This document shows positions 7,852 through 21,146 of a DNA stretch of 22,028 bases, in pieces. The first letter of the stretch is position 1. The number at the start of each line of letters is the position of its first letter. The translations under genes and the position numbers were made by a program. The DNA is from a virus, in IMG/VR virus record IMGVR_UViG_3300009526_000071, positions 1 to 22,028 of that record, one strand, 5' to 3'. A model generated the notes under the pieces. That model had not been told where the DNA came from, ran no database searches, and saw nothing but the letters and a program-made list of their open reading frames with translations.

Positions 7852-7893
7852 ATTATTAACTCCTATCTATATATAAATATCTAATATATTGTT

Positions 7894-8889
7894 TTATTGT
7901 TTAAGCTTAGCAACATCACTCGTTATTTTTACAACTTTTGATGCGTTCGTTGCTGGGAACGTGGGGCCTACCCCAGTATTAAATGTTGCAGTGGCACTAG
8001 TAAGAGCTTTTAGCTCATTACTCATACCTTCAATTATATCCATTAACTTATCTATATCAACCTTCCACTTTTTTGTTGATATACCTACCTTATCTCCAGA
8101 TGATATTAGTACTGAGTCCTTCCTTGAACTTAGTATTAGTCTGTCTGATCTCATTATTATTTGATTTCCACCGTATCTATCAACTTGTTCGTAGTCTTTA
8201 TCTAAGCTTGATTCTAGCTTTAATGTTACAACAGGAGTTTCTGAGCATAGATATATTGAGTTATCATCACCAACTATATCTTCATTGCCTAAGCCTTCCT
8301 CTTCATCTGTGTGACATGTTATCATGATCACTGGTTTGTTCTCTGACTTACCACCAAATAGCTTTCCAAGAAAGCTTTCCTCTGATGTTGAAGTTAACCT
8401 GATTGTTTGGCCTGCCCTGCCTTCAACTATTACATCACCTTCTGTTGGGTCCATCTTTTTTGCAGGCCTGGGCTTTGCAAATAGTCCAGTAAAGAAGTCT
8501 GTTGCATCTGGAAGAATTGATGCACCCTTTACTTGAATATTGTCACCAATCTTCCCTCTTGTATTAATAACATCTGAGTAATAGTATTTTGAATCTTCAC
8601 CTTTTATAACTAGCACCTGTTCACCTGGAAGTGGTACAGATCTAAAGTATGGGTTTAGAGGGGATACTACGTGGCTTTGTGGGGCACCTTGGCCAGCAGC
8701 TTTAATTCCACTTACTGGTGTTACTTGAACTACGTCAGCTCCATAAAATTGATCATCCTCTCTCCTACCAGAGGCAGCCATTACACTACCAATAAATACT
8801 GTTTCACTAGATATAGAAGACCCTGCATTATCATCGCCAGATGATTGTGGAGGTGGGGTTCTCATATTTCCTGTTTTATATTTTGACAT
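7894..8889 (-). CDS. Baseplate hub/spike protein, gp5-like, without lysozyme domain
   Basis: A 331-residue protein that starts with a disordered Pro/Ser-rich arm and then shows an OB-fold-like region (about 30-110: VFIGSVMAASGRRED, FRSVPLPGEQVLVIKG, YYYSDVINTRG), as in the N-terminus of T4 gp5, the spike on the tail axis. A beta-rich part follows (EGDVIVEGRAGQTIRLTS; SDRLILSSRKDSVLISSGD), resembling the stem of spike proteins, and then a helical C-terminus. T4 gp5 is 575 residues with an embedded lysozyme; no lysozyme catalytic motif is visible here. The ATG overlaps the upstream gene by 14 bases and has AGGGAT as ribosome site. Spike assignment is good; how it is tipped is not visible. Confidence 0.8.
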   Translation of the reverse strand: MSKYKTGNMRTPPPQSSGDDNAGSSISSETVFIGSVMAASGRREDDQFYGADVVQVTPVSGIKAAGQGAPQSHVVSPLNPYFRSVPLPGEQVLVIKGEDSKYYYSDVINTRGKIGDNIQVKGASILPDATDFFTGLFAKPRPAKKMDPTEGDVIVEGRAGQTIRLTSTSEESFLGKLFGGKSENKPVIMITCHTDEEEGLGNEDIVGDDNSIYLCSETPVVTLKLESSLDKDYEQVDRYGGNQIIMRSDRLILSSRKDSVLISSGDKVGISTKKWKVDIDKLMDIIEGMSNELKALTSATATFNTGVGPTFPATNASKVVKITSDVAKLKQ

Positions 8890-9238
8890 TTTTCTTATCC
8901 CTGTCAGACCTACCTATATCAGCTACAGCTTCTAATAGCTGTTTCTTTTCGGCATCCGTAAGTAGTGGAGAGTCATTATTTTTATTTTCAGGTCTAGCCA
9001 TAGCTCTTTGAACAATTGCAGCCATCTTAACTAGATGTTCATCATTCTTTACTGAAGCCTCTAGGTACTCCTTTATTAAAGGTACAATTAGAGTTGCATC
9101 ACCTGAGTTCTTAATTAGAGGTTGTAAGTCTGATATTAGTAGTTTTATTTGTCGGTCTTTTGATTTAGAGTTCAAATAAATGTCTTCTAATAAGTTTGAA
9201 AAGGTCTTACCCTTAAATAGTTCTAAATTTCCATCCAT
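8876..9238 (-). CDS. Conserved phage protein of baseplate/late-gene region, 120 aa
   Basis: A helical, acidic, soluble 120-residue protein starting MDGNLELFKGKTFSNLLEDIY, with the segment SGDATLIVPLIKEYLEASVKNDEHLVKMA in the middle (residues 47-75). From memory, similar small proteins lie beside gp5 in T4-like cyanophages and pelagic phages, but I cannot name a function. It is placed between the late sigma factor and the hub gene and overlaps the hub gene by 14 bases. The leader before ATG 9238 has no Shine-Dalgarno site; ATATTTATTATT precedes it. A scaffold or chaperone role is possible. Confidence 0.75.
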   Translation of the reverse strand: MDGNLELFKGKTFSNLLEDIYLNSKSKDRQIKLLISDLQPLIKNSGDATLIVPLIKEYLEASVKNDEHLVKMAAIVQRAMARPENKNNDSPLLTDAEKKQLLEAVADIGRSDRDKKNVKI

Positions 9239-9258
9239 AATAATAAATATCAGTTAGT

Positions 9259-10035
9259 CTAAAACCTACTACCAGACTTGTATGTTTCATACTTTTCCAT
9301 GAAGTGAACCTTAATAGCATTTACAACTCTTGTTATATATTGAGTCTTTACATCTGACATCTCTCTTATCATAATGTATATAGCCTTCTTGTTAAAGTTT
9401 TCAATATCTTCACGCCTCTTAAATATCTCAACAATTGAATGAAGTATCTTTATGTCTCGTTCCTTAGTTACAACCTTCTCAGGGTTCTTTTCCATCCAGT
9501 TTGTAAATTGGTCCATAAATTCAGATAGCTCAGACTGCTCCTTGTCTTTTAGTATCTCATTAGTAACATTTCTTGTCTTATCAATTAAGTCTACACTTCT
9601 CTTCTGAATCATCTTCTTGTAGTTATTATTGTTATGCAAGATTAGCCAATTTTTTGCTACTATACTAAAGTATGAAAAGGCTTTGCCTTTGTCTGCTGTA
9701 AATTTATTTAATTTTTCTAAAAGGTGTACTATCACCTCATGTTGTACTTCCCTAGTTGGGTAGTCAAAGTAATAAAACTTAAACCTGTGAATAAGATTCT
9801 CAGTGAGCTTCATGAATGGGTAGTCCATATGCTCAGCATATAGTCTATTTCTCTTTATTGGATCTGGCTCATTATTATATGCTATAATTGCAGCTTGTGT
9901 TGTCTCTGTAAAGTATTGTTTCTTTGATCTAGGCCTTCCTCTCTTTCTCTTTTGAGGTCCCAGTGCTGCTATTCTTGCCTCCTCAATCTTCTTTGCTTGT
10001 AGCTCATCATAGAACTTATCGACTGCACTTTTCAA
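9259..10035 (-). CDS. 55: Late-transcription RNA polymerase sigma factor, gp55-like
   Basis: A 258-residue protein with the sigma region 2 pattern of phage late sigma factors. Around residues 65-135 it reads LYAEHMDYPFMKLTENLIHRF, then FYYFDYPTREVQHEVIVHLLEKLNKF and GKAFSYFSIVAKNWLILHN. T4 gp55 recognises the TATAAATA late promoter and works with the sliding clamp. It is longer than T4 gp55 (185 residues); the extra N-terminus carries KRKRGRPRSKK (residues 30-39), an AT-hook-like minor-groove-binding motif. The start is TTG at 10035, overlapping the TGA of the upstream gene (TTGA) with GGGAGAG upstream; no ATG lies near it in frame. Being just upstream of the baseplate operon fits its role. 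Confidence 0.88.
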   Translation of the reverse strand: MKSAVDKFYDELQAKKIEEARIAALGPQKRKRGRPRSKKQYFTETTQAAIIAYNNEPDPIKRNRLYAEHMDYPFMKLTENLIHRFKFYYFDYPTREVQHEVIVHLLEKLNKFTADKGKAFSYFSIVAKNWLILHNNNNYKKMIQKRSVDLIDKTRNVTNEILKDKEQSELSEFMDQFTNWMEKNPEKVVTKERDIKILHSIVEIFKRREDIENFNKKAIYIMIREMSDVKTQYITRVVNAIKVHFMEKYETYKSGSRF

Positions 10036-10307
10036 TTAATCTCTCCCTTAAGCTCTTTAATTGTGTCATTCAACTGCTTAAATGTCTGTCCAACCTCATC
10101 ATCCTCTGCAAACATATTCTTAGAGTCTATTCCTTGCATTGTGTCATAGGTCTTAGTAATTGCCTCTTCAAGAGTAATGATTCTGTCTTCTGATTCTAGA
10201 ATTTGATCTACAACAGTCTCATATTTCCTTAGTATGTTCCATGCCACAAAAGCTAACACTAGTATTGAAGTTGAAAGTATTATATATATGTATATATGTA
10301 TATCCAT
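10032..10307 (-). CDS. Small single-pass membrane protein with coiled coil, 91 aa
   Basis: Residues about 5-26 (IYIYIILSTSILVLAFVAWNIL) are one clear membrane segment; the rest is acidic and helical, with heptad-like spacing (EDRIITLEEAITKTYDTMQ and FKQLNDTIKELKGE). It would sit in the inner membrane with a cytoplasmic or periplasmic coiled coil. The ATG overlaps the stop of the HD-domain gene (TAATG) and the stop overlaps the sigma start (TTGA). Function unknown; a holin or spanin is not supported because the topology and length are wrong for a classic two-TM holin and the lysis neighbours are missing. Confidence 0.75.
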   Translation of the reverse strand: MDIHIYIYIILSTSILVLAFVAWNILRKYETVVDQILESEDRIITLEEAITKTYDTMQGIDSKNMFAEDDEVGQTFKQLNDTIKELKGEIN

Positions 10308-11029
10308 TATTTAGCTCCGAATAGTTCATCAAATAACTTTGACTTATCATTTTTTGGACTAGATTCTTTTCTGTATTTCCAGTTTTCAAATTCAATCCTT
10401 GATGCCATATGATCGGCATGGTGCATAACAATTGGTAAGTTTGCCTTAAGGCCTCTTTCAGGTAGGTAAGACTTTAAGTAAGTGTCATTAGAGCCATCAT
10501 AGACTCCGTCATGAGTAAGTATACCAATCATTTCATTCTGAGAAACCTTAATTCCGAACTCTTGTAATAACCAAAGACTTCTGTGAGGTACAGACATGTG
10601 AGTTATATCAGGGTTGTTTGTATAAATCTTCCCTTGATTCTTTCTATGCCATTCACTTGGGTTTGGAATGTAATACTCATTTTCAATATCACCAACCTTA
10701 CCTAGATCATGATTAAGTGCTACAAACATTAGCTCCTCTCGTGTATAATTATCCATATATGCACCCATTTCTCTCCACATATTATATAATCGTTCTGCAC
10801 AATTCATAACATTTAATACATGAGAGACATATCCACCTATGAATGAGTTATGGAAGTGTTCTATTCCAGATGCAGGTGCCATCATAATTTGTTCTTGCAT
10901 CTTTGTATATAAATCTAGTAAAGCTTCTTGCCTTTCACCACTAAAGTTATCTTTAATATTATTTGTTAGATCATTCCAGTTACTAGTTAGTAATTCTGCT
11001 GAAAGATCTTTGCTGTTTTTTGGTATCAT
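10307..11029 (-). CDS. HD-domain metal-dependent phosphohydrolase-like protein
   Basis: The 240-residue protein carries the ordered HD-superfamily motifs: H70 in GGYVSHVLNV, the HD pair H107-D108 in NHDLGK, a His at 149 (PHR), H173 in LTHDG and the late D206 in HHADHMA. HD enzymes hydrolyse phosphate esters such as dNTPs, (p)ppGpp or cyclic nucleotides using one or two metals. No synthetase or regulatory domain is attached, so the substrate cannot be read from sequence. Phage versions may alter nucleotide pools or defuse nucleotide alarm signals; that is inference. It precedes the TM/coiled-coil gene and sigma factor with overlapping junctions. Confidence 0.85.
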   Translation of the reverse strand: MIPKNSKDLSAELLTSNWNDLTNNIKDNFSGERQEALLDLYTKMQEQIMMAPASGIEHFHNSFIGGYVSHVLNVMNCAERLYNMWREMGAYMDNYTREELMFVALNHDLGKVGDIENEYYIPNPSEWHRKNQGKIYTNNPDITHMSVPHRSLWLLQEFGIKVSQNEMIGILTHDGVYDGSNDTYLKSYLPERGLKANLPIVMHHADHMASRIEFENWKYRKESSPKNDKSKLFDELFGAK

Positions 11030-11067
11030 TTGTATTCTCTTTATAATTCTTATTTTATTACTATATA

Positions 11068-11682
11068 CTATCCTATTAGATCTATTAAACCTAACTCCAA
11101 TGCCTCATCTGCAGATACAAACATATCAGTCTTAGTGTTTTCCCTCCACCAGTCTATATCTTTTTTTGTAGAGTCTGCAAGTAGCCTTAAGGCATCTTCT
11201 TCCATCTTTTTATATTGCTTTGCAGAAGCTTGCATATCAGAATTCTTTCCAGACTGATTACCTGAAGCTTGGTGTAACATTATTGTTGAGTGTCTACTAC
11301 AGATTCTTGAACCTGTTGCACAAGCTAGTATCATTGCAGCTGCACTCATGGCTTGGCCTCTTACAATTACATTTACCTTAACTTTAAGTGACTGTATATA
11401 GTCAATAATGCCAAACATCTCAAACATACAACCTCCCGTAGAGTTCATAACAATTGTTATTGGCTCAGCATCTTTAGAGTCTGGTCTTTCTCTAAGTAGT
11501 GTTCTACACTTTGTGCATAGATCATAGAATGTGAATTCTTTTATATCACCTATAATGTAGATGATACTATCATTAATATCTAATCCGTGAGTTATCTCAG
11601 AAAACTTGTCTGTCCCTGAGTCTGTAGTGATACCTTCTGTTGTATCTGTTGCTAGTGGCTTGTCGCCGTAAATTTCTTTCAT
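11068..11682 (-). CDS. clpP: ClpP-like serine protease subunit
   Basis: A ClpP-family protease of 204 residues if translation begins at ATG 11682 (MKEIYGDKPL); a TTG three codons upstream is also open, but this ATG is one base after the previous stop. Catalytic residues are in place: Ser113 in GQAMSAAAM, His137 in IMLHQ and Asp186 in TKTDMF. The oxyanion strand has MNSTGG and the C-terminus FVSADEALELGLID matches ClpP. ClpP needs a AAA+ partner; none is in the window, so it may form mixed rings with host ClpX/ClpA or act as a virion maturation protease. The N-terminal ~30 residues are acidic and unlike host ClpP. Confidence 0.9.
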   Translation of the reverse strand: MKEIYGDKPLATDTTEGITTDSGTDKFSEITHGLDINDSIIYIIGDIKEFTFYDLCTKCRTLLRERPDSKDAEPITIVMNSTGGCMFEMFGIIDYIQSLKVKVNVIVRGQAMSAAAMILACATGSRICSRHSTIMLHQASGNQSGKNSDMQASAKQYKKMEEDALRLLADSTKKDIDWWRENTKTDMFVSADEALELGLIDLIG

Positions 11683-11683
11683 G

Positions 11684-11905
11684 TTAATCAAATAAAAGTT
11701 TTAATTGATCTTTGTCAATTTCGTGTTCATTATTCTTTGGTGTAGGGAATGCATTCTCAACGCTTTTGTCTGCATAGCCTAGTGACTTTGCCATTCTAAC
11801 GCATATATTTCTAAATTCAAATGTAGTTAAGCCATTGCTAAATTCCAATTCAATTTTAGAAGGTTCTTTTGTTGTGTTACCCCTAACATAAGTTAGCTTA
11901 TCCAT
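11684..11905 (-). CDS. Small protein of unknown function, 73 aa
   Basis: Unrecognised soluble protein starting MDKLTYVRGNTTKEPSKIELEFSNG, with one short beta part and a helical middle (FEFRNICVRMAKSLGYAD), then an acidic C-terminus. It has a good ribosome site (GAAGGAGAG) before ATG 11905 and ends one base before the ClpP ATG, so it is probably co-translated with the protease. It could be an adaptor or partner of the protease, but only the position suggests this. Confidence 0.7.
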   Translation of the reverse strand: MDKLTYVRGNTTKEPSKIELEFSNGLTTFEFRNICVRMAKSLGYADKSVENAFPTPKNNEHEIDKDQLKLLFD

Positions 11906-11939: not shown

Positions 11940-11951
11940 TAATATAACAAA
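11940..11951 (-). promoter_or_regulatory. Candidate promoter element TTTGTTATATTA
   Basis: In the short gap between the Zn-ribbon gene and the 73-residue gene, the minus strand has TTTGTTATATTA, the same 12 bases as at 20036-20047 and close to TTGATTATATT found before three other genes. It ends 35 bases before the ATG. Whether it is a promoter is inference from recurrence and position. Confidence 0.35.
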
Positions 11952-11954
11952 AAT

Positions 11955-12506
11955 TTATGAAGAATAAAAATATCCATCAAGGTATTTTTGGATATCTTCT
12001 TGAGAAAACTTACCTTTTAGCAGTCTAGAGTAGTATCTTATATCTCTCATAATAGGCTTCTTATCTTTCTTCCACCTTGTCTTATCTAGAGTCTTTTTAA
12101 GCTTATGTAGATTAGCACCTGCAATTCTTTTTAGATCCTCTTTTTGCTTAGACTTTAACCTAAGTCTTTCTTTTATCTCAGTTGCTGATAAAGTACCTTT
12201 AAGTTCTATTTGCTCTTCACCTTTATGGAATACCCTTCCATCAACATGAACAAATTCCTTCATCCATCTCCAGCCCCTATGGAAGCCTGATGGTTTGTTT
12301 GATTGCTTGTCACTTTCACCAAACTCTTCTTTATATATATCTGATACACATTGATAACATGTAGATGCTATAGTATCCTCAGAGACACAAGTAAACTGAC
12401 CACACTGTCTGCATTCCATGTATTTATACATAGCACCTTCTCTTTGGTTCCATGCTGTTCCAGGTCTATACTCAACCTTGTATGATACTTCTTTAGATTC
12501 TTCCAT
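11955..12506 (-). CDS. Zn-ribbon-like protein, 183 aa
   Basis: The N-terminal part has two Cys pairs, C32-x2-C35 (ECRQCG) and C50-x2-C53 (TCYQC), spaced like a zinc ribbon. The C-terminal half is Lys/Arg-rich and helical (KERLRLKSKQKEDLKRIAG; TRWKKDKKPIMRDIRYYSRLLKG), which would suit nucleic-acid binding. No nuclease or polymerase motif is visible. It overlaps the end of the 4-TM membrane protein gene by 14 bases. Role unknown; a transcription or DNA-handling accessory factor is one possibility. Confidence 0.75.
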   Translation of the reverse strand: MEESKEVSYKVEYRPGTAWNQREGAMYKYMECRQCGQFTCVSEDTIASTCYQCVSDIYKEEFGESDKQSNKPSGFHRGWRWMKEFVHVDGRVFHKGEEQIELKGTLSATEIKERLRLKSKQKEDLKRIAGANLHKLKKTLDKTRWKKDKKPIMRDIRYYSRLLKGKFSQEDIQKYLDGYFYSS

Positions 12507-13467
12507 AGTTCTTTATTCTTTTGGTTAACTTGTCTCTTTCAATTTGTAGGTCCTTAAGTCCCTTTTCTCCATATATATCACCTTGTAAAGTTTTTTCTTC
12601 GACAATAGAAGATTGAACGTCCTCTGGGAATGCAGATATAACCTCATCCATTGTATAAGGTGTGTTAAACTCTAATCCATCTGGCTTAGACATCACAACC
12701 TTTGTAGTAGTCTTAATTTGAGCAAATGCCACATTAGCAGCTATAACCATTGCTATTGCTAGTGGATCAAATACAAATATAATAAGTAACATAAACCAAT
12801 TAACAATACTCTCCATTGGTTGCTCAGTTAGCTGTGACATATACTTTAGTGGTCCAAGTTCTCTAGCAGACTCATTGCCAATTTGCTGCTCTAATATCTT
12901 AGTGTCATATAGTGCTATTGAATCAGTTACTGAACTTAGCTTAAGCTTAGCCTCTGATAATTCAGATTGCTTTAGCTTTCTAACCCTTGATGAGGTTGTA
13001 GTAACTAATTGACCAGATTCTCTGTCAACATATTGTATCATTGTTGGATTTGCAAGAGAGGTAGTTAGCTCCTTAACAATTAATTTATAGTCATCTCTAG
13101 ACTCTATAAATCTAATCCTCTTAGCATCAATTATCTGGACTTGCTTATCTAAAAATTCAGATTGAGTACTGGTCTCTTGAAATGCACCAGATAAGAATCC
13201 GTATATACCACCTGAAGTTATTGCCATTAGTATAAATACAGCCAACACCAAATATGATCTTAGCCACTTATTGATTATGTCCCAGTATTGATACAACAAT
13301 GAGGCCACAATTAATTTTGCAACCTCAAGTGTACCAGCCATAATCATTACTTCAATACTAGCACCAGCAAACAACTTACTTAGTCCTAAGACTGAGTAAA
13401 GAGCTGCAGATGCTGATACTGAAAGTGCTGATATAGCTATTAATAAAGGGAATAGCCTTCTCTTCAT
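12493..13467 (-). CDS. Four-TM membrane protein with coiled-coil loop, 324 aa
   Basis: Membrane segments are visible at about residues 5-28, 36-59, 71-93 and 222-250. Between TM3 and TM4 lies a long charged helical loop (about 100-215), probably a coiled coil, and a ~70-residue polar tail follows TM4. The opening with a Ser/Ala-rich TM1, a FAGASIEVMIMAGTLEVAKLIVAS stretch split over TM2, and TSGGIYGFLSG in TM3 resembles, from memory, membrane proteins of unknown function in other T4-like marine phages. The ATG directly abuts the stop of the preceding coiled-coil gene (TAGATG). Superinfection immunity or membrane remodelling are guesses. Confidence 0.8.
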   Translation of the reverse strand: MKRRLFPLLIAISALSVSASAALYSVLGLSKLFAGASIEVMIMAGTLEVAKLIVASLLYQYWDIINKWLRSYLVLAVFILMAITSGGIYGFLSGAFQETSTQSEFLDKQVQIIDAKRIRFIESRDDYKLIVKELTTSLANPTMIQYVDRESGQLVTTTSSRVRKLKQSELSEAKLKLSSVTDSIALYDTKILEQQIGNESARELGPLKYMSQLTEQPMESIVNWFMLLIIFVFDPLAIAMVIAANVAFAQIKTTTKVVMSKPDGLEFNTPYTMDEVISAFPEDVQSSIVEEKTLQGDIYGEKGLKDLQIERDKLTKRIKNYGRI

Positions 13468-17278: not shown

Positions 17279-17764
17279 TTACTTTTTTATAATTTTTTGT
17301 ACAACAGTATTTGTAGTTAGTATTTCAACTATAGCATTCCAATCTAGATCCTTTTGGCCAAAGTGAAAGAAGTGTCCTTTGAAGTCCTTTTGACCTCTGT
17401 ATGTAGTGTCATCAATGAGTACATCTCCCATAAGAAGATCCTTTCTATGAGTTAAGAACATCTTTCTTTTAAGAGCTGGGAAGTGTTCTTCAATCCAGTT
17501 TCTTTTTTGACCCCAAGCATCTGGATTATTCCAGGGTGGAGTAGTAGCAATAAATACATCGTATCCAACTTCTATAAACTTTGCAACTGCATCCTTTGCT
17601 CCTGGCATCACCTCAAAGGTGCTAAAGTCTAAGACTTCATCTGGTTTAATATTACCTAAGTCCATTGGTAACTTTTCCTTTAGTGTTTTAGCTGCCTTTT
17701 CAAAGTTGGCAAGGACACCATCCATGTCTATAAATATAGTTAATTTGTCTTTAGCGTTTGTCAT
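17279..17764 (-). CDS. HAD-family 5'(3')-deoxyribonucleotidase-like phosphatase
   Basis: The 161-residue protein starts with the HAD motif I DMDGVLANFEKA (Asp13 nucleophile, Asp15), typical of the NT5C 5'(3')-nucleotidase family. Motif II is FIATTPPW (71-78), the motif III Lys is in THRKDLL, and motif IV is LIDDT with Asp118-Asp119. This family removes phosphate from dNMPs and could balance the nucleotide pool during phage DNA synthesis. Length matches the bacterial and phage members. The coupled DNA ligase downstream fits a DNA metabolism pair. Confidence 0.88.
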   Translation of the reverse strand: MTNAKDKLTIFIDMDGVLANFEKAAKTLKEKLPMDLGNIKPDEVLDFSTFEVMPGAKDAVAKFIEVGYDVFIATTPPWNNPDAWGQKRNWIEEHFPALKRKMFLTHRKDLLMGDVLIDDTTYRGQKDFKGHFFHFGQKDLDWNAIVEILTTNTVVQKIIKK

Positions 17765-20035: not shown

Positions 20036-20047
20036 TAATATAACAAA
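20036..20047 (-). promoter_or_regulatory. Candidate promoter element TTTGTTATATTA
   Basis: Minus-strand TTTGTTATATTA in the gap after the CHU_C gene, 23 bases before ATG 20013. It is identical to 11940-11951 and related to TTGATTATATT before three other genes; the TTG is 33 bases before the ATG, as at 15961. It probably starts the small-gene transcript. Confidence 0.4.
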
Positions 20048-20072: not shown

Positions 20073-21146
20073 TTAATAAAAAACTGTCACATATCCATTT
20101 ACCTCATAGACTTCAGTTGGGTTATATTTTATAGCTTTAATTGTATATACATATACTCCATTAGCTACATCTGCATCCCACACATCATTTGAACTAGCAC
20201 TAATCCAAACCAAGCCACCCCACCTATTGTATATTCTAACTTCCCATCCATCCCAACAATTGTCCGCTAGCACTTGCCAAGTATCATTCCATCCATCTCC
20301 ATTTGGAGTCACAGCATTTGGAGCATATATAGACGTCTCATCACAAGTGCTTTGTGCACAAGGTAGTCCTGTTTCACAATCCATATACTGAGTTAGTGTG
20401 TGAAATTGTGTAATTGTATCTACCTGATATATGAATTCATATACTACTAGCTCATTGTATATTGTATCTGTAACATAATATATTATTGTGTCTACTATAA
20501 CAATATATTCAACTTCAACTAATGTAATAGTGTCTGTAATATAAGTAGGCACATCAACATAAACAGTATCACATGCAGGTAGTGCACAAGTAATAACTGT
20601 ATTGTTATCTAAGTTAACATCAGGATAATTTTGAGTTTGATTTCCGATATTCGGGTTTACTGCCCAACCACCGACATCTGTTGTAGCCGTTTGAGATAAA
20701 TTAATCTGCCATATAGCAAGCTCCATACATAGAGTATCATTGGCAAGCATTTCGGCCCAACAATCATTTGTGTTAGATCCTGAATCATACACATTGGCAC
20801 TCCAACTGTCTCCATCCTCTAAGACTTGATTTCCAAATAGAGTAAACACCTTAAATGTCCAACCTGGATGATTAGTTGTTCCAGTGCATCCCCAATTATA
20901 ATCTAGGCCTGGTGAGTGCAGTCCTAAAACTATATGGCTAACAGTTGTGTTATTATTTATATGAGGGCTAGCACTGTTGTCACAAGTATTGCCGACATTT
21001 GTAAATTCATTGCAGCCACAGTTTTCAGTATTGATAGCTTCAATAGTAATATCTCCAGTTGCTGCATTCCAGCTACTGATCTCTACATCACATTGTGCAG
21101 ATGTAATAGGTGCCCAAAGGGCTAGTAAGTAAATTAGTTTTCGCAT
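20073..21146 (-). CDS. Secreted protein with T9SS type B (CHU_C) sorting domain, 357 aa
   Basis: Residues 1-18 (MRKLIYLLALWAPITSAQ) are a Sec signal peptide with the SA|Q cleavage style of Bacteroidota. Residues 19-190 are a Cys- and Trp-rich ectodomain of unknown family. Residues 193-252 hold a beta stalk of repeated DT(I/V)-Y units (DTVYVDV, TDTITLVEV, VDTIIYYV, TDTIYNEL, VDTITQF). Residues 272-355 are the CHU_C/gliding-motility C-terminal domain: IYAPNAVTPNGDGWNDTW, WEVRIYNRWGGLVW, VWDADVANGVYVYTIKA, and a closing GYVTVF strand. This domain targets cargo to the type IX secretion system and the cell surface. Its ATG lies inside the last codons of the 120-residue gene (13-base overlap). It could coat the infected cell or join the virion; which is unknown. 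Confidence 0.9.
   Translation of the reverse strand: MRKLIYLLALWAPITSAQCDVEISSWNAATGDITIEAINTENCGCNEFTNVGNTCDNSASPHINNNTTVSHIVLGLHSPGLDYNWGCTGTTNHPGWTFKVFTLFGNQVLEDGDSWSANVYDSGSNTNDCWAEMLANDTLCMELAIWQINLSQTATTDVGGWAVNPNIGNQTQNYPDVNLDNNTVITCALPACDTVYVDVPTYITDTITLVEVEYIVIVDTIIYYVTDTIYNELVVYEFIYQVDTITQFHTLTQYMDCETGLPCAQSTCDETSIYAPNAVTPNGDGWNDTWQVLADNCWDGWEVRIYNRWGGLVWISASSNDVWDADVANGVYVYTIKAIKYNPTEVYEVNGYVTVFY
21111..21146 (-). repeat. Duplicated signal-peptide segment, copy 1 (36 bp)
   Basis: These 36 bases, the 5' end of the CHU_C gene, match 21461-21496, the 5' end of the 120-residue gene, at all but a few positions; an 18-base core (AATTTACTTACTAGCCCT on the minus strand) is identical. The duplicated part encodes the hydrophobic core of the signal peptide (LIYLLALWAP). 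It suggests duplication or recombination at the signal-peptide segment. Confidence 0.75.

Follow-up and report, generated by a model that had tools for sequence, protein, structure and literature searches.

In a 22,028-base viral DNA record (IMG/VR record IMGVR_UViG_3300009526_000071, hereafter the window), whose genes of interest all lie on the minus strand, five genes form a single tightly packed operon. They encode a 73-aa protein (o73), a ClpP-fold serine protease, an HD-domain protein, a predicted transmembrane (TM)/coiled-coil protein, and a sigma-70-type factor (Table 1). The reading that we favor, with a probability of about 0.58 for the full explanation as proposed, is that this is an early/middle operon of a T4-related phage, probably one infecting Bacteroidota, and that its last gene encodes the late sigma factor of the phage. 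The structure would be ordinary, an early operon with a terminal late sigma gene, and the passengers unusual: a tailed, probable HD nuclease and a swappable ClpP without the normal docking site.

According to this proposal, transcription by host-type RNA polymerase would begin at a promoter near 11948 and run through o73, an optional slot gene (ClpP in this record), HD, the TM/coiled-coil gene, and sigma. The resulting sigma factor would guide the polymerase to short TGATATTTAT-type promoters; the first such promoter, immediately 3' of the sigma gene (9251), would turn the baseplate genes on. The C-terminal tail of the HD protein, which resembles that of the phage single-stranded DNA-binding protein (SSB), would bring this putative nuclease to the single-stranded DNA (ssDNA) machinery of the phage, through contact with SSB itself or with the binding partners of the SSB tail. 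ClpP would serve as an exchangeable peptidase, probably without docking to host ClpX.

A first-pass annotation of the DNA had described the ClpP-like, HD, TM/coiled-coil, and sigma genes at 9259-11905 as coupled, and this was confirmed: ClpP and HD are separated by 38 nt, HD and TM overlap by 1 nt, and TM and sigma by 4 nt. A single nucleotide lies between the o73 stop and the likely ClpP ATG at 11682, and this ATG (204 aa) rather than the TTG at 11691 is probably the true ClpP start. The TM/coiled-coil protein carries an F..DDEVG-type motif in 48 of 48 homologues. Among the baseplate genes downstream of the operon are two that PHROGs assigns to baseplate wedge subunits; we ourselves applied the labels gp5-, gp6-, and gp25-like, and the gp5-like gene has no PHROG match.

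Table 1. Positions of the operon genes, the promoter words, and neighboring features in the window
Feature	Position	Strand	Remarks
o73	11684-11905	-	73 aa; no Pfam or PHROG match; C-terminus ...QLKLLFD
ClpP-fold serine protease	11068-11691	-	PF00574 E 8.3e-33; triad intact, ClpX-docking pocket altered
HD-domain protein	10307-11029	-	YhaM-like fold, likely nuclease
HD C-terminal tail SKLFDELFG	10316-10342	-	resembles phage SSB (gp32) tail
TM/coiled-coil gene	10032-10307	-	N-terminal transmembrane helix and coiled coil, both by reading
Sigma-70-type factor, probable gp55-like late sigma	9259-10035	-	fold and gp55 profile; Pfam silent
Early (host-type) promoter word GTTATATT	11941-11948	-	upstream of o73
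Late-type promoter word GATATTTAT	9243-9251	-	directly 3' of sigma, upstream of g120
g120	8876-9238	-	opens the baseplate operon; conserved neighbor of sigma
Second late-type promoter word	7873-7881	-	upstream of o138 (138-aa gene)
zn183	11955-12506	-	183 aa
tm324 gene	12493-13467		carries [ILV]YG[DE] in tail
NT5C-like gene	17279-17764		
357-aa gene	20073-21146	-	C-terminal CHU_C domain

Promoter words and the candidate late sigma factor

Promoter words were surveyed in G001 (145 kb) and G002 (171 kb), two large relatives that together supplied 119 gene-upstream regions. The early word GTTATATT was found in 23 of the 119 regions (1.0 expected), and ATATTTAT and TATTTATA in 42 and 38 of them, respectively (3.3 expected each). 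The late-type word GATATTTAT favored the coding strand in both relatives (27 vs 1 and 16 vs 2 sites; 2.4 and 3.0 expected per strand), and 17/27 and 11/16 of its sites lay at most 110 bp upstream of an open reading frame (ORF). When all sites were aligned, GTTATATT was preceded by a T-rich stretch with CAA, and no strongly conserved second box accompanied the late-type word. The window has three minus-strand copies of GTTATATT, at 20044, 16566, and 11948 (the last just 5' of o73), and a single plus-strand copy at 20121; its copies of GATATTTAT are both on the minus strand, at 9251 (upstream of g120) and 7881 (upstream of o138).

The main count scored [GT]ATATTTAT at most 100 bp upstream of a gene in distinct regions across the relatives. 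The word preceded g120 in 45 of 47 regions (0.8 expected) and o138 in 24 of 30 (0.4 expected); it preceded the upstream neighbor tm324 in two of 40 and o73 in one of 45. No site was found upstream of ClpP (0/24), HD (0/54), TM (0/51), sigma (0/54), gp5-like (0/41), gp25 (0/34), gp6 (0/31), or zn183 (0/53). With a different cut (GATATTTA, 130 bp), the counts were 24/47 for g120, 22/30 for o138, and 1/40 for tm324. The strict early word GTTATATT was present upstream of o73 in 4/46 regions. Because the early word is inconstant and the late word near-constant, the upstream border of the operon appears variable and the downstream border well marked. From these words we infer promoter function and operon timing, and the layout agrees with an early operon whose final gene encodes a gp55-like late sigma. 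T4 late promoters are described as short and recognized by gp55 in PMC1524935.

The structural model of the sigma protein is all helical (mean predicted local distance difference test score [pLDDT] 85.4, predicted template modeling score [pTM] 0.51). A Foldseek search with it gave no match below 1e-3, the best being 0.049. The titles of the first six rows name sigma factors, provided that RPSH and RPSD are, as we assume from the UniProt names, sigma-H and sigma-D of B. subtilis. In VIA-align, the top match was sigmaE region 2 (Z 10.4, root mean square deviation [rmsd] 2.7, 100 residues), and, judged by title, all 50 rows were sigma factors or complexes containing one. Neither the Foldseek nor the VIA rows included T4 gp55, which carries no evidential weight. 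Below the NCBIfam cut-offs, the window protein matched TIGR02937 (E 3.6e-4) and its counterpart in Flavobacterium phage immuto matched SigI models (0.0013); of the four members scanned, the two others matched no NCBIfam sigma model. A profile built from eight gp55 proteins of annotated records matched the sigma family with an E of 5.5e-4 and a probability of 30%, colinear over the region-2 stretch, compared with E 0.35-0.6 in three control comparisons. A sequence search of the PDB with the sigma profile gave an unrelated eukaryotic protein as the best match (E 0.0098), which was taken as chance.

We conclude with moderate confidence that the protein is probably a gp55-like late sigma factor, and it would be this factor that reads the late word. 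It shares with T4 gp55 the sigma region 2 fold, a short putative late promoter without a second box, and late structural genes behind that promoter. It differs in length (258 aa vs 185 aa) and in its promoter word, which is not the TATAAATA of T4; unlike T4 gene 55, its gene shares an operon with the HD and TM genes and immediately precedes baseplate genes.

Several observations speak against this interpretation. The VIA Z of about 10 is below about 13, the range where the tool warns of a mere common helical arrangement, and no Pfam sigma family was matched in 16 of 16 members. With the looser cut (GATATTTA, 130 bp), the late word was also found upstream of zn183 in 5/55 regions, and the early word TTATATTA preceded o73 in only 19 of 45 distinct regions (2.5 expected). 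The late word of the window is 13 bp upstream of the g120 ATG, as against 22-26 bp in many other lineages, so the first late mRNA of the window lineage would be nearly leaderless. Moreover, the promoters considered here are sequence words, not mapped starts.

Gene order and the exchangeable slot

Gene order was examined by tblastn with 20 window genes against 91 loci. Since these had been recruited with ClpP and HD queries (for HD, the best 80 of at least 597 loci), they represent a non-random sample; nine loci (L001, L016-L021, L033, and L090) were excluded from the order and promoter counts because they repeat the window or contigs already listed. The phage group appears to be widespread, as the HD query alone gave at least 597 confirmed loci in IMG/VR contigs. 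The recurrent order was tm324 - zn183 - o73 - slot - HD - TM - sigma - g120 - gp5-like - o138 - gp25 - gp6, and 71 of the 78 loci holding both HD and sigma had a recognized TM gene in between; the neighborhood search suggested by the first-pass annotation thus revealed a conserved order.

The order extends to more distant records. In phage immuto (NC_055915), HD, a 97-aa gene, sigma, and g120 follow one another ahead of the baseplate genes, a late-type word lies upstream of g120, and HD, sigma, and g120 are 38-48% identical to those of the window. The 97-aa gene was not recognized by tblastn; the immuto record differs from the window in having no ClpP and an HD protein without the tail. An assembled bacterial bin (L205) shows, by reading, the order HD - TM-like - sigma-like - g120-like. 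In Microcystis phage Mel-JY01, ClpP and sigma are present and tblastn gave no HD match.

Two further features of the neighborhood were recorded. The sigma-g120 interval exceeds 300 bp in 46 loci, and in L023, L024, L025, L027, L028, and L029 it holds a gene for a protein of 136-144 aa whose start resembles a signal peptide and whose C-terminus is outer-membrane-like. The product of zn183 has a CxxC...CxxC zinc motif in 50/53 homologues and a basic C-terminal half, and matched no family.

The gene between o73 and HD is not constant. ClpP occupies this slot in 31 of the 70 loci with o73 and HD, and in 38 of the 39 ClpP-less loci (the exception being L081) it is replaced by an unrelated conserved protein of about 80 aa. 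When all loci up to L124 were tallied, a set that includes tiles and repeats of one contig, 53 had ClpP, 39 had the ~80-aa protein, and none had both. The ~80-aa protein ends in [FY][SN]LYGE (for example, L035:4220-4462) and had no match among named phages, NCBIfam, or PHROGs. ClpP is therefore an optional, exchangeable extra of the operon, and the first-pass view of it as a constant part of a module is not supported. In the sigma tree, the ClpP label requires four changes vs a shuffled mean of 19.2; the deep forks of this tree are open, immuto and Mel-JY01 form long branches, and, of the five rows that lack both slot genes, three are cut-off loci.

Extra genes occur in the ClpP-HD interval of some loci, among them a 2OG-Fe(II) oxygenase (the G001 copy matching PF13640) and, by eye, transglycosylase-like or M23-like genes. 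As it takes up such varied genes, the interval appears to be a site of gene exchange. Insertions between ClpP and HD were noted in L006, L009, L014, L015, L060, L061, and L069. An [ILV]YG[DE] element shared by the ClpP N-terminus (11662-11673), the C-terminus of the ~80-aa protein, and the tm324 tail was considered and rejected, as its counts across two proteomes were not above chance (4 vs 3.9 expected and 5 vs 4.4 expected).

The exchange of ClpP for an unrelated gene, the entry of other genes at the same place, and the failure to find HD between ClpP and sigma in Mel-JY01 would all agree with the view that the five genes are neighbors without a shared job, kept in an inherited order and packed between two promoters. 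We take this possibility seriously but consider it rather doubtful, because the HD-sigma-g120 order is kept at 38-48% identity in immuto and, by reading, in L205. An early operon with a terminal late sigma gene is the reading we retain.

The HD protein and its C-terminal tail

As a single sequence, the window HD protein gave only weak matches below the cut-off (PF01966, 0.01; PF18019 Cas3_HD, 0.0031), and the HD residues were present in 44 of 44 distinct homologues. With the structural model (mean pLDDT 81.4, pTM 0.82), YhaM was the sole PDB chain that Foldseek returned with an E below 1e-3 (1.6e-4). VIA likewise placed the YhaM HD domain first (Z 17.0, rmsd 3.8, 185 residues), followed by an exopolyphosphatase with a Z of 9.7. 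Among 38 HD members, matches with E at or below 0.01 were to Cas3'' HD (17), ICE TraI relaxase (14), YhaM (11), and MobH (9), those of the window copy being below the curated cut-offs; no alarmone hydrolase, HD-GYP, dGTPase, or RelA/SpoT-type model was among them. The RelA_SpoT synthetase domain (PF04607) was found in none of nine records and in 11 of 14 controls, in keeping with the earlier remark that the HD protein has no attached synthetase. The role assigned to it there, the clearing of nucleotide signals, finds no such backing, as the best fold and sequence matches are HD proteins that act on nucleic acids. A PDB sequence search with the HD profile gave an unrelated eukaryotic protein at best (E 0.27), again taken as chance.

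Most likely, the HD protein is a metal-dependent nuclease of the YhaM type, without an oligonucleotide/oligosaccharide-binding (OB) fold of its own. YhaM is described in PMC11347170 as degrading both ssRNA and ssDNA in the presence of Mn(II), and homologues of YhaM as carrying an OB fold. The phage protein has in common with this 3'-5' exonuclease the HD domain fold and the HD residues; it differs by lacking the N-terminal OB fold and by carrying the SSB-like C-terminal tail.

In 43 of 44 HD copies, a variable linker is followed by a terminal F..[LIM]F. A profile of ten distinct HD tails was scored over all ORF ends of the two large relatives (175 and 208 ORFs); in both, HD ranked first and the gp32-type SSB second, and none of 94,730 other 16-aa windows attained the SSB score. 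SSB tails were taken from 80 loci, the best of 187; all 27 distinct tails read AFD.LFN (73 of the 80 loci by a stricter pattern). With the HD-tail profile, the immuto SSB tail KFDDLFN scored 9.7, and the T4 gp32 tail DLDDLLNDL had a low score of 4.4. The pattern common to these tails can be read from T4 gp32 (DLDDLLNDL), the SSB of the relatives (AFDDLFND), and HD (LFDELFGD); unlike gp32, the HD protein is no ssDNA-binding OB protein. The acidic C-terminal domain of T4 gp32 binds UvsX, UvsY, gp59, primase, RNase H, and Dda, as stated in PMC3012046 and PMC3016280, and the HD tail may bind the corresponding SSB partners.

Counting against this part of the proposal, the HD model contains no OB barrel, being helical from residue 11 with only two short strands, and its similarity to the YhaM HD domain is a domain-level match with 16% identity. 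The two large relatives used in the tail test are mutually related. Furthermore, the HD proteins of immuto and L205 have no tail, even though the immuto SSB has one of this kind; tail and HD domain are thus separable, and the tail appears to be an acquisition of the window's group.

In its most specific form, the proposal holds that, in a family of T4-related phages from the environment, an SSB tail was grafted onto an OB-less, YhaM-type HD nuclease whose gene is co-made with the late sigma gene, with a ClpX-independent, phage-only ClpP in the slot, replaceable by a small unrelated protein. We regard this as tentative and, taken in full, somewhat unlikely. If it were true, a nuclease would be carried to SSB-coated DNA or to SSB partners, and ssDNA processing would be coupled to the onset of late transcription, which T4 couples to replication via the clamp. 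An SSB-type tail on a nuclease would also be a simple means of steering an enzyme to ssDNA. In a limited literature collection, nothing was found that joins YhaM with a phage, an exonuclease, and a single-stranded DNA-binding protein.

Two other explanations concern the HD protein and its tail. It might be a nucleotide-pool enzyme, a dNTP or NMP phosphohydrolase whose tail binds ribonucleotide reductase. The small subunit of this reductase also has an acidic-aromatic C-terminal tail, a G001 gene read as NrdB (tail DDNWDEIF) ranks 7th of 175 with the HD-tail profile, exopolyphosphatases and SAMHD1 appear among the VIA rows at Z 8-9.7, and an NT5C-like gene is present in the window. This explanation is nevertheless unlikely, since YhaM stands far higher (Z 17.0) and the SSB tail scores 15 vs 3.6 for NrdB.

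Alternatively, the HD and o73 tails could be sliding-clamp motifs and o73 a gp33-like bridge between clamp and sigma, the genes forming a clamp-coupled late-transcription set. The o73 tail resembles the clamp motif; the pattern used for this tail fits 28 of 46 o73 homologues and misses the window's own DQLKLLFD. The o73 end QLKLLFD and several HD tails (QDLFKDLF) come near the PCNA-interacting peptide (PIP) pattern Qxxhxxaa given in PMC3012046, and T4 gp33 joins gp55 to gp45 according to PMC1524935. The window HD tail, however, has no Q, and we consider a clamp-coupled set quite unlikely. As a gp33 candidate, o73 gave no signal against the single T4 gp33 sequence (E 0.31). The clamp search with PF02916 was uninformative, with no match anywhere, controls included. 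When polymerase tails were inspected for the clamp motif, the G002 polymerase was unflagged and that of Mel-JY01, which was only read, ends in NLSKFFNFK; PolB had no match in G001.

ClpP and the proposed takeover module

ClpP was compared in 21 phage rows, consisting of the window copy and 20 of 27 distinct copies. Positions are given in E. coli numbering. The catalytic triad S97, H122, and D171 was present in 21/21 rows. In the pocket that receives the IGF loop of ClpX, by contrast, 48 was Arg, 92 Arg, 60 Thr or Asn, and 62 aliphatic in all 21; 114 was Ser in 20, 112 Ala or Ile in 18, 49 Thr in 17, and 189 Gly in 17, with position 82 mixed. Position 90 was retained as Ile in 18/21. Three solved bacterial ClpPs have, by reading, Tyr at 62 and Leu at 114. 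Hydrophobic residues of the IGF-loop pocket are described for N. meningitidis ClpP in PMC6853987.

The phage protein resembles bacterial ClpP (S14) in sequence family and in the Ser-His-Asp triad; it differs in having a polar ClpX-docking pocket, an unlike N-terminal extension, and no recognized AAA+ partner. It is an active-site-competent peptidase, whose mode of action we would expect to be independent of ClpX: docking to host ClpX appears unlikely, though not impossible. In seven of seven hand-picked pairs, the nonsynonymous rate (dN, 0.012-0.164) was below the synonymous rate (dS, 0.07-1.39), which suggests that ClpP is under constraint.

As the first-pass annotation had noted, no AAA+ partner is apparent in the window, with none among the 19 proteins scanned in Pfam and the remaining proteins only read. 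AAA_2 (PF07724) matches were found in six of nine relatives' records, some of them without ClpP; these records may be fragments. Two of the six AAA_2 proteins were examined as candidates for a phage-borne ClpX, and neither was ClpX by any model above the cut-off: the nearest NCBIfam models were GvpN and then ClpA/ClpB, all below the cut-off, and for the one scanned in PHROGs the nearest was a CobS-like family.

It is also conceivable that ClpP serves in virion assembly as a second protease, processing parts of the tail, baseplate, or scaffold without an AAA+ ring, like ClpP-like prohead proteases. Its PHROG matches are mostly head maturation proteases, the pocket is altered, and baseplate genes lie downstream. 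A role as the capsid protease was rejected because the three large ClpP-bearing relatives G001, G002, and Mel-JY01 have a separate S77 prohead protease; the PHROG label of head maturation protease thus does not fit it, and the refuting outcome named in the first-pass annotation, a non-conserved order together with a ClpP confined to capsid maturation, was not borne out. No separate prohead protease was seen in G005 (55 kb) or G007 (36 kb), two shorter fragments that bear ClpP. In NCBIfam, the housekeeping ClpP model scores somewhat higher for the protein than the head-maturation model does (106 vs 89 bits, both below the cut-off), and the late-type word was found upstream of ClpP in 0/24 regions and upstream of o73 in 1/45. 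A second assembly protease is, on balance, improbable, and an exchangeable peptidase of the early operon remains our preferred view of ClpP.

Least credible is the takeover module put forward in the first-pass annotation, in which ClpP and host ClpX would destroy host regulators, HD would clear alarmones or cyclic nucleotides, and sigma would switch transcription: the genes are co-directional and conserved, with a complete ClpP triad, but the docking pocket is changed in 21/21 rows, ClpP occurs in only 31/70 loci, the RelA_SpoT domain in 0/9 records, and the HD matches are nuclease and relaxase HD domains with no alarmone hydrolase. What stands of that idea is the conserved, packed operon with a probable late sigma gene last and a late word behind it; the roles given to ClpP and HD, including the removal of host regulators via host ClpX, are not supported.

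The phage group thereby gains a late promoter word that can be tested, a candidate for its late sigma factor, and two enzymes whose expected partners (ClpX and alarmones) look wrong. A ClpP lacking the pocket for ClpX would amount to a natural experiment on how Clp works. No study of a phage-encoded ClpP was found in a limited literature collection; a ClpP ORF of Tenacibaculum phage Larrie is mentioned, unstudied, in PMC10013915, and clpP variants in jumbo phages are mentioned in PMC13037316.

Two observations lie outside the operon. The 357-aa gene has a C-terminal CHU_C type IX secretion signal domain (PF13585, E 7.8e-16) and seems built for a Bacteroidota secretion route; because of this domain and the kinship to the Flavobacterium phage immuto, the host is probably a member of the Bacteroidota. 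In G002, GroES-like and GroEL-like genes are adjacent to each other, by reading, 3' of the DNA polymerase (L119:7775-8083 and L119:8086-9720, corresponding to G002 67775-69720).

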